From contig PSRA01000258.1 of assembly GCA_003175695.1 (NCBI GenBank), positions 1 to 64,000 of the forward strand: DNA of 64,000 nucleotides. The letters are read 5' to 3'. This stretch comes from Bacteroidota bacterium (GTDB lineage: Bacteria > Bacteroidota > Bacteroidia > Chitinophagales > Chitinophagaceae). Below, piece by piece: positions 3,245 to 42,471 of this stretch. The notes below the pieces were generated by a model. It did no database searches and was not told where the DNA came from. It saw only the letters and a program-made list of their open reading frames with translations. The number at the start of each line of letters is the position of its first letter. The first letter of the stretch is position 1. The position numbers were made by a program, and so were the translations under genes.

Positions 3245-3292
3245 AAAGTAGTGTCAATTAACCCACAGAAAGTAGTGTGAATTAATCGACAG
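3245..3292. repeat. Two tandem 24-bp direct repeats
   Basis: Two adjacent 24-bp units, 3245-3268 and 3269-3292, agree at 21 of 24 positions. Each starts AAAGTAGTGT and ends ACAG. They sit directly upstream of the dyad element at 3303-3344. Their role is unknown; they could be further regulator sites or a trace of an element end. Confidence 0.7.
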
Positions 3293-3302
3293 AAAAATTT
3301 GC

Positions 3303-3344
3303 GCAAGTAATAACTTGCATTTACATTTGCAAGTAATCGCTTGC
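3303..3344. promoter_or_regulatory. Paired 16-bp dyad operator, copy 1
   Basis: Two 16-bp inverted repeats, GCAAGTAATAACTTGC (3303-3318) and GCAAGTAATCGCTTGC (3329-3344), lie 26 bp apart centre to centre. The spacer reads ATTTACATTT. The element ends 29 bp before the ATG of the outer-membrane protein gene at 3374. A second copy with the same architecture lies at 35023-35064. Twin dyads at a fixed near-integral helical spacing (about 2.5 turns) are typical of a dimeric repressor binding cooperatively, for example of TetR type; the regulator itself is not in the window. Confidence 0.75.
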
Positions 3345-3373: not shown

Positions 3374-3928
3374 ATGCACAAAAAAACTCTTTTATTGGTG
3401 TGGTTTGTCGTTTTCTATTCGGGCCTGCATGCGCAGAAAGGCAATAATTCCATAAGCATGAATGCTGAATTTGCAATCCCGGGTTTTCAAAAGGAAAACG
3501 GTTTTGGTTTTTACGCGAAGGGGTTCTATGGCATAGGAAAATCTGGACAGATTACAGTATCTCTTGGTTTCGCACTTTTTCATTCTAGTGATTCTGTTAG
3601 TGATATGGAGAAAGGGAAGACATCAAAAAACCTTATCCCGGTTTTATTCGGATATAAACAAAATATAGGTAGTTTTTTTATTGAACCCAGGATTGGTTTG
3701 GGCCAATTAGGCGGCAGGTGGCAGTTGTATGGCACGGGTGATTTTGTACTCGAATCGGTCTTTGCACTAATGGGGGGAATAAGCGCGGGGTATGGTATTA
3801 AGCGATTCAGTTTCGGCATAAACTTCCTAGCGGCCCATGGAGTTGATGCTGGAGACTGGGGCAACAAATATTTTCATTATACAAGCATGTTTATAGGCTA
3901 TGATTTGTTTTCAAACCGCAGGCATTGA
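3374..3928 (+). CDS. Small outer-membrane beta-barrel-like protein
   Basis: A 184-residue precursor from the ATG at 3374, with signal peptide MHKKTLLLVWFVVFYSGLHAQ. The longer frame back to TTG at 3341 runs through the operator and is rejected. The mature part has alternating aromatic/glycine strands (GFGFYAKGFYGIG, SFFIEPRIGLGQLGG, SFGINFLAAHG), as in eight-strand outer-membrane barrels. No binding motif is seen, so the function is unknown. It is preceded by the paired dyad element, so it is probably controlled by the same regulator as the gene pair around 35 kb. The last 18 bp overlap a convergent gene relic. Confidence 0.75.
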   Translation: MHKKTLLLVWFVVFYSGLHAQKGNNSISMNAEFAIPGFQKENGFGFYAKGFYGIGKSGQITVSLGFALFHSSDSVSDMEKGKTSKNLIPVLFGYKQNIGSFFIEPRIGLGQLGGRWQLYGTGDFVLESVFALMGGISAGYGIKRFSFGINFLAAHGVDAGDWGNKYFHYTSMFIGYDLFSNRRH

Positions 3929-32620: not shown

Positions 32621-34891
32621 TCACCACACCCTGATTTTAAATCCACCATTAAATATGAAGCCGTCTGTTGGCGCCCATATCTCTTTGAATTGCGGATTTC
32701 GTATCGTTCCCGTATAAATAGATTCATATTTAGTTTGCCGGGTGTCGGTAAAATTTTCAGCATTTACAAAAAGACTGAAATGTTTAAAGCTGTATTCGGC
32801 CGACATACCCATAACCCAAAAATTGGGTCTTGTCTGTCCATTGCTAAGCAACTGTTCTCCCGTATAGAATAGTTCGTATCCCACTCTTAATTTTCCTTCG
32901 ATTTCGTAGGATAAAGTTACATAGAGGCGGTCCTTTGCCGTCAGAGGATTGAGGCTGTCAGTATTATTATAGTGTCTTCTTGCATCAGTAAAAGTATAGC
33001 CTACATACACTGAAATATCGTCGAGGTCCAGTTTCAGATTTGTCTCTGATCCCTTGCTGTCGAGATAACCGTCGGCATTATAAAATTCAAAGTTCCCGTC
33101 CGGGAGCGGCGCTTCACTCAGGACTAAGGGGCTTTTCAAACGTGTGTAGAAAAAAAGTTGATTGACAGAAACTGAGGCTTCGTCAGAAATTCTTTTTCTG
33201 AAATTGAAATCGATATTCGCACCGACCGATCTTTCGGGGCTAACTTTGGATAAATCCAGGGGCTCAATATTTTGGTACCCCTTTTCTTCTGCTTCTTCTG
33301 AAAATATGGAGGGAGTTTTGTACCCCAGACCCCCTCCAATGCGCGTCGTGAACAGCGTCGAGATTTTATACATAGCAGAAATCCTTGGCAGAAAAAAATA
33401 ATTTTGTCGGTCTGTTCCATCTATCCTAAGGCCACTTTCCAGGATAATCTTCTCGGAAACTTTAAAATTGTTCTGAACGAATGTCCCGAGAGTAGTAAGA
33501 CTACTATTGAGGGGATAGGCCGTAACGTTAGTTTGTGTAAAATTGTCGGTCCAAACATTCCCGCCTACAATCCATTCCGATCGTTTATTTTGCAATAGGT
33601 AACTTAACTCACTGAAGCTGGATACCTGCTTGCCAGAAAATAAATAGCCTGGTTTTGTTATCGTTCGGTCGAAATAACCGATGCTGTTTTTGAAATTAAG
33701 GATTTTATCCCCTGAGAATTTCTTTTCAAACTGTAATTGGGTAGACAACCTGGTTGAAAGGTTCTTTTCGAAGTAGGAGTGAGTACTATCGTTCTTATGT
33801 TGAATTAACCGCATGTCTCCCCCCAACCGATTTTCGAAATTTGCGTTTGCTCCGAGTGAAACCGTCGTCGAATTGTTGACGTAGTAGAAGACCTTGGGGT
33901 TAATCGTAAACCTGCTAAATTTGGGAATATCAGATAAGCCATCTTTGTCGACATCATAAGCTGCCTGCCAGTTCTGCGCTGAATAAAGTGTGATGCCAAT
34001 TTTTTTGAATTTCTGAGCATAAAATCCACTTACATCACCTGCGTTAGTTTGGTTCCCGTTAACGAGGAATGATAACTCCTTTTTTCCGGTTGGTACTTTG
34101 GAAACGAAATTTACCAATCCAGCAATTGCTCCTCCTCCGTAGAGCGTGGATGAGGCTCCCTTAATCACTTCTACTCTTTTCAGGTCAAGTGGAGGAATTT
34201 GAATAATACTCAGTCCGGTTGAATATCCGGTATACAATGGAAATCCATCCTTTAACAGCAAGGTATATTTTCCATCAAGTCCCTGTATGCGGATGCTTGA
34301 ATTTGCAGATGTGGCCGAAGTCTGCTGTGCCTGAATGCCCGTACTTTCAGACAATATCATTCTTACATTGCCTGGATTACTCACAGATTGTTCTTCAAGT
34401 TCTTCTCCGGAGATGGTTTCTATCCTGGTGGGAATATTGCCTATTGTCCTGCTGCTTCTGGTGGCAGACACGACCACTTCACCAAGTTCACCTTCTTTAG
34501 GTTGCAAAAAAACAGTTCTGATTGAAGTGTCTGACAGCGGGAAAACTAAACTGTCATAGGTTTCTTTGTAGCCAACATGCCTAATAATAATTACTTGCTT
34601 TCCATCTGGAATGTTTTTCAAAGTCATCGTTCCATTGTCGTCTGCTATTGCCGCGATATTAATACCACGGACCAGAACCGTTGTACTTACCAAAGGTTCC
34701 AGCGACCGTGCGTCCTTGATACGAACCCGTAATGTGTGTTGTGCGTAACCGCAAACTGAGACACTTGACGCAACGAAAAACAAAAAGAAATTTCTAAGAT
34801 TCGATGCGAATTGCCTGAAGGAATTTTTATGTAGAGAACGCAGTTTGAATTCCGGGTAGAATTGCCATAAAACGCGGACAATCATCTTCAT
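32621..34891 (-). CDS. TonB-dependent receptor with carboxypeptidase-like N-domain
   Basis: The frame opens with a TTG at 34900, but the ATG at 34891 (or 34885) is more likely, giving about 756 residues. A cytosolic-looking basic lead and signal peptide ending VCGYAQ are followed by a carboxypeptidase D-like beta domain (HTLRVRIKDARSLEPLVSTT, AAIADDNGTMTLKNI). Then comes the plug (GELGEVVVSATRS, RIQGLDGKYTLLLKDGFP, VEVIKGASSTLYGGGAIAG) and a 22-strand barrel ending FIFNGGFKIRVW. The plug and FTDTRQ strand resemble siderophore or metal-related receptors, but the ligand is unknown. It is divergent from a PDZ aspartyl protease gene; the region between carries the second copy of the paired dyad. 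Confidence 0.9.
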   Translation of the reverse strand: MKMIVRVLWQFYPEFKLRSLHKNSFRQFASNLRNFFLFFVASSVSVCGYAQHTLRVRIKDARSLEPLVSTTVLVRGINIAAIADDNGTMTLKNIPDGKQVIIIRHVGYKETYDSLVFPLSDTSIRTVFLQPKEGELGEVVVSATRSSRTIGNIPTRIETISGEELEEQSVSNPGNVRMILSESTGIQAQQTSATSANSSIRIQGLDGKYTLLLKDGFPLYTGYSTGLSIIQIPPLDLKRVEVIKGASSTLYGGGAIAGLVNFVSKVPTGKKELSFLVNGNQTNAGDVSGFYAQKFKKIGITLYSAQNWQAAYDVDKDGLSDIPKFSRFTINPKVFYYVNNSTTVSLGANANFENRLGGDMRLIQHKNDSTHSYFEKNLSTRLSTQLQFEKKFSGDKILNFKNSIGYFDRTITKPGYLFSGKQVSSFSELSYLLQNKRSEWIVGGNVWTDNFTQTNVTAYPLNSSLTTLGTFVQNNFKVSEKIILESGLRIDGTDRQNYFFLPRISAMYKISTLFTTRIGGGLGYKTPSIFSEEAEEKGYQNIEPLDLSKVSPERSVGANIDFNFRKRISDEASVSVNQLFFYTRLKSPLVLSEAPLPDGNFEFYNADGYLDSKGSETNLKLDLDDISVYVGYTFTDARRHYNNTDSLNPLTAKDRLYVTLSYEIEGKLRVGYELFYTGEQLLSNGQTRPNFWVMGMSAEYSFKHFSLFVNAENFTDTRQTKYESIYTGTIRNPQFKEIWAPTDGFIFNGGFKIRVW

Positions 34892-35022
34892 CGTCCGCAA
34901 GATACCTCTAGATTCTGAAGATTTTTGGAAGCATTAACTCTTCGTCTAAATGACCGGTGAGCCCGGTAAAATCGAAGACTGGCAAACAATTCGGGTCCTC
35001 TCGGCAGCAAAAAAAAACTTGC

Positions 35023-35064
35023 GCAAGTGATTACTTGCATTTACTTTTGCAAGTAATCACTTGC
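35023..35064. promoter_or_regulatory. Paired 16-bp dyad operator, copy 2
   Basis: GCAAGTGATTACTTGC (35023-35038) and GCAAGTAATCACTTGC (35049-35064) repeat the architecture of the 3303-3344 element with the same 26-bp centre spacing. Over the 46 bp compared, 42 bases agree. A partial third half-site, ACTTGCGCAAGT, overlaps the left edge (35017-35028). The element ends 54 bp before the GTG start of the aspartyl protease gene and lies about 130 bp from the start of the divergent TonB receptor, so it could control both. Confidence 0.75.
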
Positions 35065-35118
35065 ATGTTATAATAACGGCAGGCATAAGCAATTAAATAC
35101 TGCTTGTAATTATTTATT

Positions 35119-36369
35119 GTGTCATGTACCAACCATATCCGGTTTTTGTCATCATTCAGACTGTCCTCATCAGCCAGGTTTATTGGTGTGTGCAACCTAC
35201 TCGCCGCACTCTTAGTTTTCTACGCCACGACTGCGCGGGCAGAAATTAAAACCCCGCCGTCCCGACTGCTCAGCGTCATTCCATTCCGAGTACTTAGTGG
35301 GGGCATAATCGTTATCAAATCAAAAGTTGGCGACTTTCCTGATTCGCTGAATTTCATTTTTGACACGGGAAGTGATGGCATCTCCCTTGATTCAACCACT
35401 TGCGAAAGATTGCATATTTCCACACAGTTGTCCGATCGAAAAATACGTAGTATCTCGGGCATAAGCCTTGTAAGGTTCGTTCCCAATACAGTCTTGCGCA
35501 TGCCTGATCTCAATATCGACAGCCTTAATTTTTATGTGAATGATTTTAGCATACTCACGAGTGTGTATGGAGAAAATATCGACGGCATTATTGGGTATAG
35601 TTTTTTTAGCAAGTTCATTGTTAAGATTGACTATGACAGCTTAAAAATTTATGTGTATTCGAGAGGTTCAATAAAATATCCCAAAGGGGGCTATCTCACG
35701 CACCCGTTCATCGTGAACCTTCCTGTTGAATCGGCAAAAGTGAAGGAAAATGCGGATATCACGGCCAGGTTCTATTTCGATACAGGGGCGGGCCTATGTT
35801 TATTACTGTCTAATGATTTTATTAGCGACAGTGCACTGTTTAACATTAAGAAAAAGAAACCCGTAGAGACCCTCGCGCTTGGAGTGGGAGGGAAAAAGAG
35901 CTTACGGCAAACGACAGTCAAGGATTTTAAGTTCGGCCCATTTCATTTTCGAAACGTACCTGCTTATATTTTTGACGATGAGTACAACATCACGTCATAC
36001 CCTTCACTAGCCGGTCTTATCGGAAACGATTTGCTGGATAGATTCAATGTGATATTGAATTATGGACGCAGAGAAATTTATATGACACCCAATTCTCATT
36101 ACCGTGATCTTTTTGATTATTCATACACAGGCCTTGGCATTTATTGGATTGGTGGCGACGTACGTGTATCTGACGTAATAAAAGATTCACCGGCTGAAAA
36201 GGCTGGTTTTAAAACAGACGACATCATAATTGGTGTTGCTAATAATTTTTCCGGAAATATCCAGGATTACAAGAATCTTCTTCAAAGAACCGGCGAAAAA
36301 ATAAAAGTCGTTGTCAGGCGGGAGAATAAGTTGCTTGAGTTTAAGCTGAAGGTGAATAGTATTTTTTGA
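35119..36369 (+). CDS. Periplasmic retropepsin-like aspartyl protease with PDZ domain
   Basis: 416 residues. The start must be the GTG at 35119: a TAA lies at 35107 in frame and no ATG occurs until the protease domain. After a signal or anchor segment ending TTARA come two copies of the aspartyl motif, FIFDTGSDGISL (Asp82) and ARFYFDTGAGLCLLL (Asp221), as in single-chain retropepsin-like bacterial proteases. A C-terminal PDZ domain (about residues 330-416, DSPAEKAGFKTDDIIIGV) probably reads protein tails. Likely role: periplasmic cleavage of misfolded or signal proteins. It is transcribed away from the TonB receptor across the paired dyad operator. Confidence 0.88.
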   Translation: MSCTNHIRFLSSFRLSSSARFIGVCNLLAALLVFYATTARAEIKTPPSRLLSVIPFRVLSGGIIVIKSKVGDFPDSLNFIFDTGSDGISLDSTTCERLHISTQLSDRKIRSISGISLVRFVPNTVLRMPDLNIDSLNFYVNDFSILTSVYGENIDGIIGYSFFSKFIVKIDYDSLKIYVYSRGSIKYPKGGYLTHPFIVNLPVESAKVKENADITARFYFDTGAGLCLLLSNDFISDSALFNIKKKKPVETLALGVGGKKSLRQTTVKDFKFGPFHFRNVPAYIFDDEYNITSYPSLAGLIGNDLLDRFNVILNYGRREIYMTPNSHYRDLFDYSYTGLGIYWIGGDVRVSDVIKDSPAEKAGFKTDDIIIGVANNFSGNIQDYKNLLQRTGEKIKVVVRRENKLLEFKLKVNSIF

Positions 36370-40989: not shown

Positions 40990-41688
40990 TTTGATTCGGA
41001 AATATGTAACGAATATCTATTGTATGATTTAACTGCCATTTGATTTGCCCACGTCACATTGTTTTCATTTGCGATTCTTTAATTTTGCAATAGCTACTAA
41101 CTATCATCAATAATTGACAAGTTCCTTCTGGATTTAATCCAGGCCCAGGAGATAAGGGAAGGTCAGTCTTTGAGTCTATCAGCAAGCACTTTAATCAATC
41201 ATTTACAAGAGAGGGTTTCAATTCTGACATGGACATGAGCAGCTATATTTTGGATCATGAACAGACAGATGCCCCGCATCACACGGAATGACGGTTGAGC
41301 CTGGATTCAGATTCATGCATTAGTATCCCCTCGATTATAGTTCAGCACCTTTCTGCATTTTCCTTAGACTCCCAACCAATTGGAATCGACTTTTGTCCAT
41401 TTGATGGCTTGGGATTGAAATATTAAATCCTTTTGAATGATGCGTTGACAGCGACAAAGTAATCTAATTGCAGCCATTGCGTCTTCCGATCTTGAAATTG
41501 TTACACTAGATTTTGAATTGAAATTCATAGATTTAGCCAGGTAAAACGATATGGACCACCTGATCCTGATGTCATGTTTAGAAAGAAAATTATTTGAAAC
41601 GAGTGTCCGGATTTCAAGCCATTCATTGTCTTTAGCTGGGAGATGTTATTATTTGTATTCAAAATCACCTGATATGGTCGGCCAAATT
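40990..41688. other. 699-bp intergenic region
   Basis: The longest unexplained stretch. It holds a possible -7 box TAATTTTG at 41080-41087. A frame from 41551 reaches the next gene, but its first 46 residues lack any pattern and the real start is inside it. No RNA gene or repeat was recognised. Confidence 0.4.
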
Positions 41689-42471
41689 ATGATTGCAAAA
41701 AACGGCAGAAGTTTGTTAGTAGCCATCTGCATCACTTTTATTTCTTTGCAGAATTTTGCTCAGGAGTCAGCAGGCTGGCAACTTGAACAAATGCCCGACA
41801 GTCTTGAATTTCAATACGCGTTAAGTTCGCTCCCGCCGCATCTTAGGGAAAATGCAACGGTATATTTGCTTGATCCGAAAAAGGGCTATTATGTAGCACG
41901 CAAAGGGACGAACGGCTTCTGTGCTTATGTAAATCGTACTGAATGGGAAAGAGGCGAATTTGTGCAGGATATTTATGCGCCGCTCGGATTTGATTCATTA
42001 GGTTCAAAAACACTTTTGCCAATATTTCTTGAAGTTGGCAACATGAGGGCTTCAGGAAAATACAGTCCTCAGCAGTTACAGGATATTGTTGTACAACGAG
42101 TGAAAGACGGGACTTATAAGGCACCGCCAAGAGCCGGCATTTGCTACATGTTGTCGCCTTTGTTTCGCACCCGAACCGACCAGGGAATCGTGAGTATTGT
42201 AATGCCTCATTACATGATTTATGCCCCGTTTACTGAGGACTCAGATATCGGCGGTGGCTGGGTAACCGGCGGCCATCAGCCTTTTGTTGCCAGCACTGGT
42301 CCGGTTTTAGACAAGGCACATTCTATTTTTAATTATATAATTATCGCGGCAGGCGAAACTGAAAAGGCAAAGATTATAGAAGAAAATAAGGATTTACTGG
42401 AAAAACTTGGCGCATATAAATCCTTTTTGAAAGCTGAAACAAGTACTGCGGAACATCATCATAATAATTGA
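41689..42471 (+). CDS. Secreted protein of unknown function, paralogue of the 512-1306 gene
   Basis: The frame opens at 41551, but the ATG at 41689 (MIAKNGRSLLVAICITF) gives a signal peptide ending NFAQ and a 260-residue protein, close in length to the paralogue. The mature part shares ATVYLLDPKKGYYVARKGTNG (short block), VNRTEWERGEFVQDIY, MRASGKYSP, CYMLSPLFRT and VMPHYM with the 512-1306 protein, then ends in EHHHNN. Conservation is spread evenly, so both copies are probably under selection. The two genes are 40 kb apart with no shared neighbours, which speaks for a distant duplication or for gain of one copy. Function unknown. Confidence 0.8.
   Translation: MIAKNGRSLLVAICITFISLQNFAQESAGWQLEQMPDSLEFQYALSSLPPHLRENATVYLLDPKKGYYVARKGTNGFCAYVNRTEWERGEFVQDIYAPLGFDSLGSKTLLPIFLEVGNMRASGKYSPQQLQDIVVQRVKDGTYKAPPRAGICYMLSPLFRTRTDQGIVSIVMPHYMIYAPFTEDSDIGGGWVTGGHQPFVASTGPVLDKAHSIFNYIIIAAGETEKAKIIEENKDLLEKLGAYKSFLKAETSTAEHHHNN

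Follow-up and report, generated by a model that had tools for sequence, protein, structure and literature searches.

Paired operators built into promoters as predicted targets of one ArsR autorepressor in a Chitinophagaceae genome

In the genome of a Bacteroidota bacterium (Chitinophagaceae), we found five promoters that each appear to carry two built-in operators. These are probably the sites of a single ArsR autorepressor, encoded on contig C222, which would control its own operon and four further targets; judging from the sequence data, we put the probability of this reading at about 85%. The window, i.e. the whole 64,000-nucleotide stretch analysed, is the start of contig C250 in an assembly of 4.58 Mb and 275 contigs (78.8% complete, 0.2% contamination), and it is on this assembly that the assignment of C222, C199, C238 and C250 to one genome rests. 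The analysis names a candidate regulator for two loci of the window.

The paired element in its promoters

The element occurs in the window at 3299-3344 and 35019-35064. Sequence comparison showed 42 of 46 bases to be identical between the copies, and each copy contains two 6-4-6 dyads (starting at 3303 and 3329, and at 35023 and 35049) with centres exactly 26 bp apart, just as an earlier note on this DNA had described. In both copies, TTTG or CTTG is followed after 20 bp by TAnnTTTG, giving a rightward promoter of the Bacteroidota type with the dyads embedded in it. The features are listed below, dyads without strand.

3298-3301, plus strand: -33-type box TTTG of copy 1 (consensus TTTG/TANNTTTG in the available part of PMC6847099)
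3303-3318: dyad 1 of copy 1, GCAAGT-N4-ACTTGC, a predicted ArsR dimer site
3322-3329, plus strand: -7-type box TACATTTG of copy 1, the last G of which is the first base of dyad 2
3329-3344: dyad 2 of copy 1, with one mismatch, predicted to lie over a transcription start at about 3334-3335
3374-3928, plus strand: predicted target 1, a 184-aa protein without family or structure match, with its start 29 bp past copy 1
35018-35021, plus strand: -33-type box CTTG of copy 2, a weaker match
35023-35038: dyad 1 of copy 2, a dyad match and predicted ArsR dimer site
35042-35049, plus strand: -7-type box TACTTTTG of copy 2
35049-35064: dyad 2 of copy 2, with a start point predicted near 35054-35055
35119-36369, plus strand: predicted target 2, an aspartyl protease with a PDZ domain (PF13650, 4e-20; PF17820, 1.3e-10)

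Single dyads with up to two mismatches gave nine strand-matches in the window, compared with a mean of 1.85 and a largest count of 8 in 100 shuffles. A generic scan for paired dyads (6-4-6 dyads, agreement of at least 21/24, spacing 23-30) of the 64-kb window picked up nothing but the two elements, in three rows of which one is the second element in a shifted register; three shuffles gave 0, 0 and 0 rows. Given these counts, neither the single dyads nor the pairs are expected by chance.

The available part of PMC6847099 gives the Bacteroidota promoter consensus as TTTG/TANNTTTG with start points 4-5 nt past the -7 box, and the -33 motif is weak in the data of that study itself. Dyad 1 thus occupies the interval separating the two boxes, and from the published distance dyad 2 is predicted to cover the start.

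The earlier note had proposed a genome-wide search for further copies and a regulator gene next to one of them, and the search yielded further copies and a candidate regulator gene. GCAAGT-N4-ACTTGC occurs without mismatch at seven places in the genome, all inside pairs; with one mismatch allowed, the second dyad of copy 1 (at 3329), a C238 pair and three lone matches (on C1, C113 and C224) also came up. Over the whole genome, single dyads with one mismatch were near background (13 vs 8 for the reversed pattern), so that lone matches carry little weight. The five pairs start at C250:3303, C250:35023, C222:12532, C238:16501 and C199:784, the last with a spacing of 24 bp, and all five show TAnnTTTG, a promoter box facing the next gene, between the dyads. 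The -33-type box is TTTG in four elements and CTTG in one, and the gap to the -7 box is 20 bp in four and 18 bp in the one on C199; with TTTG and TANNTTTG boxes at suitable spacing, the elements match promoters of the Bacteroidota primary sigma factor. On C222, the element ends 6 bp before the ATG of an ArsR gene, which is followed by an AHSA1/SRPBCC gene and then by a third gene without known family. Next to the C238 element is a VOC-type (glyoxalase-like) gene, with an AHSA1 gene further on, and the C199 element is followed by a truncated homologue of the third C222 gene, the contig ending within it.

Copy 1 indeed lies 29 bp before a gene; the identity of the product as an outer-membrane protein, also claimed in the earlier note, found no match in Pfam, NCBIfam or PDB. 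Copy 2 lies between a TonB-dependent receptor (32621-34900, minus strand, TonB Plug domain) and the protease, and the domains proposed for both genes were matched. The element points to the right, so the likely targets are the genes at 3374 and 35119 rather than the TonB receptor. The receptor was rejected as a target, there being no TAnnTTTG on the minus strand of 34900-35100. The dedicated regulon of receptor, protease and outer-membrane protein proposed earlier thus keeps the protease and the 3374 gene, loses the receptor and is predicted to be wider, with five promoters.

Protease homologues were found in 19 of 38 relatives (E<=1e-30) and homologues of the 3374 protein in two of 38 (G312 and, weakly, G309). 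None of the homologue loci fetched for the two had a GCAAGY pair in its flanks (up to 1.5 kb), a comparison that more decayed sites could escape; the wider regulon therefore looks recent or private to this lineage.

Several other features were seen near these loci. Two head-to-tail 24-bp repeats (3245-3292, 88% identical, AAAGTAGTGTnAATTAAnCnACAG) lie ahead of copy 1 and end 5 bp short of its -33 box; they have no other match in the genome at up to two mismatches and are perhaps an activator site. Window genes 512-1306 and 41551-42471 (62% and 59% identity) belong to the family of the third C222 gene and are without the paired element. This family has at least five members in the genome (C222, C250 twice, C213 and C199), no Pfam match and, in PDB, only one weak row at E 0.57. 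On C238 (L023, 1182-4337), a TetR-like gene and genes resembling, by eye, those of TolC and RND adaptors are divergent from the VOC gene, and a TTAACATTGTTAA palindrome lies ahead of the TetR-like gene.

The ArsR gene linked to the element

The C222 ArsR (C222:12580-12921) has 114 amino acids and scored 70.0 bits with the ArsR/SmtB-type model NF033788 (cut-off 55) and 2.2e-09 with PF01022. Directly downstream of arsR is the SRPBCC/AHSA1 gene (PF08327, 3.8e-25), and a 6-4-6 dyad lies at the promoter of arsR itself, both as in the Rv2034 operon discussed below. Among 15 ArsR family-model matches in the genome, 12 of them over the cut-off and all read, only the C222 protein has the helix SRQAVSLH. 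Since this helix is the only one of the 15 to match GCAAGT, we assigned the GCAAGT elements of the window to the C222 ArsR. The ArsR gene set may be incomplete, and an unsequenced ArsR may be the regulator instead.

The family search covered 294 genomes including the own one, at up to three mismatches and with the reversed pattern as a control. It matched 28 genomes including the own one, and the reversed pattern matched none. The element is present in 27 of the 293 other genomes, at one place each, and 26 of these 27 copies lie at most 16 bp before a homologue of the C222 ArsR gene. The 27th (L087, genome G033) is followed by a RibD_C-domain gene about 100 bp on; this GCAAGT-type pair is a possible non-self target in another genome. 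A search of 33 genomes of the genus without mismatches found 11 elements in 10 of the 32 other genomes, 11/11 before an ArsR gene with the helix RQA[VI]SL (G035 and G282 are counted in both sets). Given this linkage in 26/27 and 11/11 cases, the regulator is most likely an ArsR protein and not one of the TetR type.

Same-genus genome G305 has two ArsR-AHSA1-third-gene operons, both with the element. Among 13 third-gene loci of other genomes, the fetched stretch lacked the element in 11, and the other two are those of G305; this counts against the reading preferred here.

Recognition helix and half-site

The own genome has seven further ArsR matches. In five of them (C59 twice, C224, C93 and C100), the layout recurs with different half-sites (GCAACC/GAAACC, GTAACC, GCAACC, GCAGTC and GTAGTC/T); those on C123 and C213 have no such layout before the start. 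Employing homologues from other genomes, we compared the helix with the half-site. Two residues of the recognition helix, 42 and 46, appear to set two bases of the half-site, as judged from covariation.

The first set comprised 90 distinct homologues from the family search and fetched stretches, 73 of them with a paired dyad at an agreement of at least 20/24. The rules read from it were noted before the hold-out result was seen: at position 42, Q goes with C (or A) and P with T at base 2; at position 46, K goes with C and L, Q or S with G at base 5. The hold-out comprised 75 distinct proteins, of which 67 had an element and 65 remained after L222 and L154 had been dropped as register-shifted. 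No element was called for 17/90 first-set and 8/75 hold-out homologues. Over all 181 proteins, 156 of the 180 with enough upstream sequence reached the agreement, as did 10 of 180 shuffled upstreams. The code tables omit sixteen proteins for which the motif search had supplied the first locus; some of them were also found by protein search.

In the hold-out, which shares descent with the first set and is not independent of it, P went with T in 37/37 cases, Q with C in 19/19, K with C in 37/37 and L or Q with G in 25/25. Residues outside the rules were E (with G, twice) and V (with T, once) at position 46, and A, S and T with mixed letters at position 42. The corresponding counts in the first set were 35/37, 23/25, 39/42 and 29/30, with E going with C once. 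The exceptions came from five proteins, of which L031, L130 and L141 were off-register by eye; an apparent match, L121, was also off register. Positions 42 and 46 seem to act separately, because each of the four residue combinations goes with the half-site expected for it.

Shared descent was considered in two ways. On well-supported branches of the tree, there was only one independent pair per helix rule. When all branches of the best tree were used, 7 to 9 of 10 pairs for position 42 and 8 to 11 (mostly 11) of 11 pairs for position 46 were as predicted over 200 draws. Among matched pairs at least 50% identical outside the helix, 41/44 and 54/55 were as predicted.

A structure predicted for the close homologue L149 from a 29-sequence alignment (mean pLDDT 88.6) has residues 42 and 46 on helix 41-53; being four apart, they would share one face of it. 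The nearest solved folds to this model are those of the ArsR proteins 3f6o, 3f6v and 2oqg.

Proposed control, alternatives and related systems

We propose that the element serves the Bacteroidota primary sigma factor as a promoter and has two ArsR operators built in. Dyad 1 would take up the space from the -33 box to the -7 box, dyad 2 would begin on the last -7 base and cover the start point, and RNA polymerase would be blocked by an ArsR dimer bound to either of them. The C222 ArsR would control its own operon (arsR, the AHSA1/SRPBCC gene and the third gene) and four more promoters, those of the window genes at 3374 and 35119, the VOC gene on C238 and the third-gene homologue on C199. Its specificity would come from Q at position 42, selecting C at base 2, and L at position 46, selecting G at base 5; the AHSA1-type partner or its ligand may control release. 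On this proposal, the earlier note holds up in predicting paired operators for a dimeric repressor whose gene lies outside the window, with five promoter-linked pairs and an ArsR gene on C222.

The repressor of the earlier note was to be of the TetR type and to bind cooperatively at a fixed spacing of 26 bp. TetR-type proteins also bind dyads of such size, and a TetR-like gene (NCBIfam matches below cut-offs) lies divergently beside the C238 copy; the stretches read around the C222 and C199 copies contained no TetR gene, and in other genomes the copies adjoin ArsR genes in the proportions given above. The dyad letters, moreover, track the ArsR recognition helix. As to spacing, 26 bp is about 2.5 turns at 10.5 bp per turn, which would place the dyads on opposite faces of the DNA, and it is found in 27 of the 30 elements of the GCAAG class. 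Over all classes, however, the homologous elements are spaced at 23-30 bp (26 bp in 89/138; the element caller covered 22-30 bp only), and TAnnTTT lies between the dyads in 115/138, compared with 4.3% after shuffling. Such a range is easier to reconcile with promoter geometry than with a fixed cooperative contact, the GCAAG class counting against this, and cooperative 2.5-turn spacing was rejected as a general design rule. We consider a cooperative TetR-type repressor very unlikely.

Paired palindromes are typical of REP-like repeats, and two copies sharing 42 of 46 bases might be read as a mobile or structural repeat without regulatory role. Tens of copies in odd places, which the earlier note had named as the sign of a mobile repeat, did not turn up: there are five pairs, each with a promoter box towards the following gene. 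The element occurs once per genome in the 27 other family genomes, nearly always before one gene family, and the sequences flanking the two window copies look unrelated on comparison. A repeat of this kind is hardly credible. An operator over promoter boxes and start normally represses, and each of the five elements has its dyads in that position relative to the boxes and the predicted start; this argues against the same ArsR binding general ArsR sites and activating, or acting both ways, at some targets. Such dual action has a precedent, as Rv2034 is reported to repress itself and activate dosR and phoP (PMC3338718, as far as available), and we regard it as unlikely here.

Compared to these alternatives, repression by the C222 ArsR through promoter-embedded operators is the reading we prefer, and a broader one may follow from it. 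It seems fairly probable that the ArsR-AHSA1 modules of Bacteroidota form parallel channels insulated by the helix code, and that the GCAAGT channel has captured four other promoters, including those of the PDZ protease and of the 184-aa protein without family match. Each paralogue would then have its own promoter-embedded double operator, with position 43 possibly setting base 4. If true, the GCAAGT channel shows a local autorepressor in the course of becoming the controller of a regulon. A two-residue code taken from natural promoters would let the operator, and then the regulon, of each paralogue be predicted from sequence. It would also supply Bacteroidota with repressors that are insulated from one another.

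The closest characterised system that we found is Rv2034 of Mycobacterium tuberculosis. According to the available part of PMC3338718, Rv2034 is an ArsR protein with a footprinted GTAAGT-N4-ACTTAC site that represses itself, its operon (Rv2034-Rv2035-Rv2036) includes a polyketide_cyc2 gene, and it did not respond to seven metals tested. The two systems are alike in the ArsR protein, the 6-4-6 dyad at its own promoter, the SRPBCC-type operon partner and some further targets. They differ in phylum, half-site class and targets, and the same part of PMC3338718 describes one dyad for Rv2034 and no pair embedded in TTTG/TAnnTTTG. The ArsR homologues compared here include a class with the Rv2034 half-site, GTAAGT; from its T at base 2 and G at base 5, the code would predict P and then Q or L at the two helix positions of Rv2034.

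Makarova et al. 2009 (PMC2701414, available part) listed ArsR-COG3832 (Aha1) pairs as TA-like modules with several copies per genome and described their ArsR subfamily as having no metal motifs. This is the gene pair of C222 and is known from that work in comparative genomics; the pair is predicted there, and neither operators and promoters nor a helix code are mentioned in the part available. SdpR-type autorepressors (NF033789) are alike by their name as ArsR-type autorepressors, and the C222 ArsR scored 61.6 bits with this model against a cut-off of 100. Metal-sensing ArsR/SmtB repressors (SmtB, CzrA and CmtR) have the same fold and matched less well than 3f6o or 2oqg, in sequence as well as in fold. 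Among the matches listed from the open-access literature (PMC), with subscription papers outside this scope, no title or abstract dealt with the operator pair or the helix code; the double operator in a promoter, its sharing by five promoters and the code did not show in these matches.

An AHSA1-like ORF was found within 1.4 kb in 54 of the 72 hold-out arsR genes with enough sequence (75 in all). Among 280 matching plasmid records, ten ArsR homologues were fetched, one from Bacteroidota and nine from other phyla, and an SRPBCC gene was next in 6/6 of those with gene tables (four had none). A dyad was seen by eye near the start in 9/10, one of them weak (4/6 matches), and base 5 fitted the position-46 rule in the eight with K or Q, the ninth having E; these dyads are qualitative only, as 5/6-match dyads also arise by chance. 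Those of L295, L296 and L298-L303, distant ArsR homologues on plasmids of Alphaproteobacteria, Cyanobacteriota and Actinomycetota, are of the 6-4-6 type (L302 being the weak one), and in several of them an SRPBCC gene adjoins the ArsR homologue.
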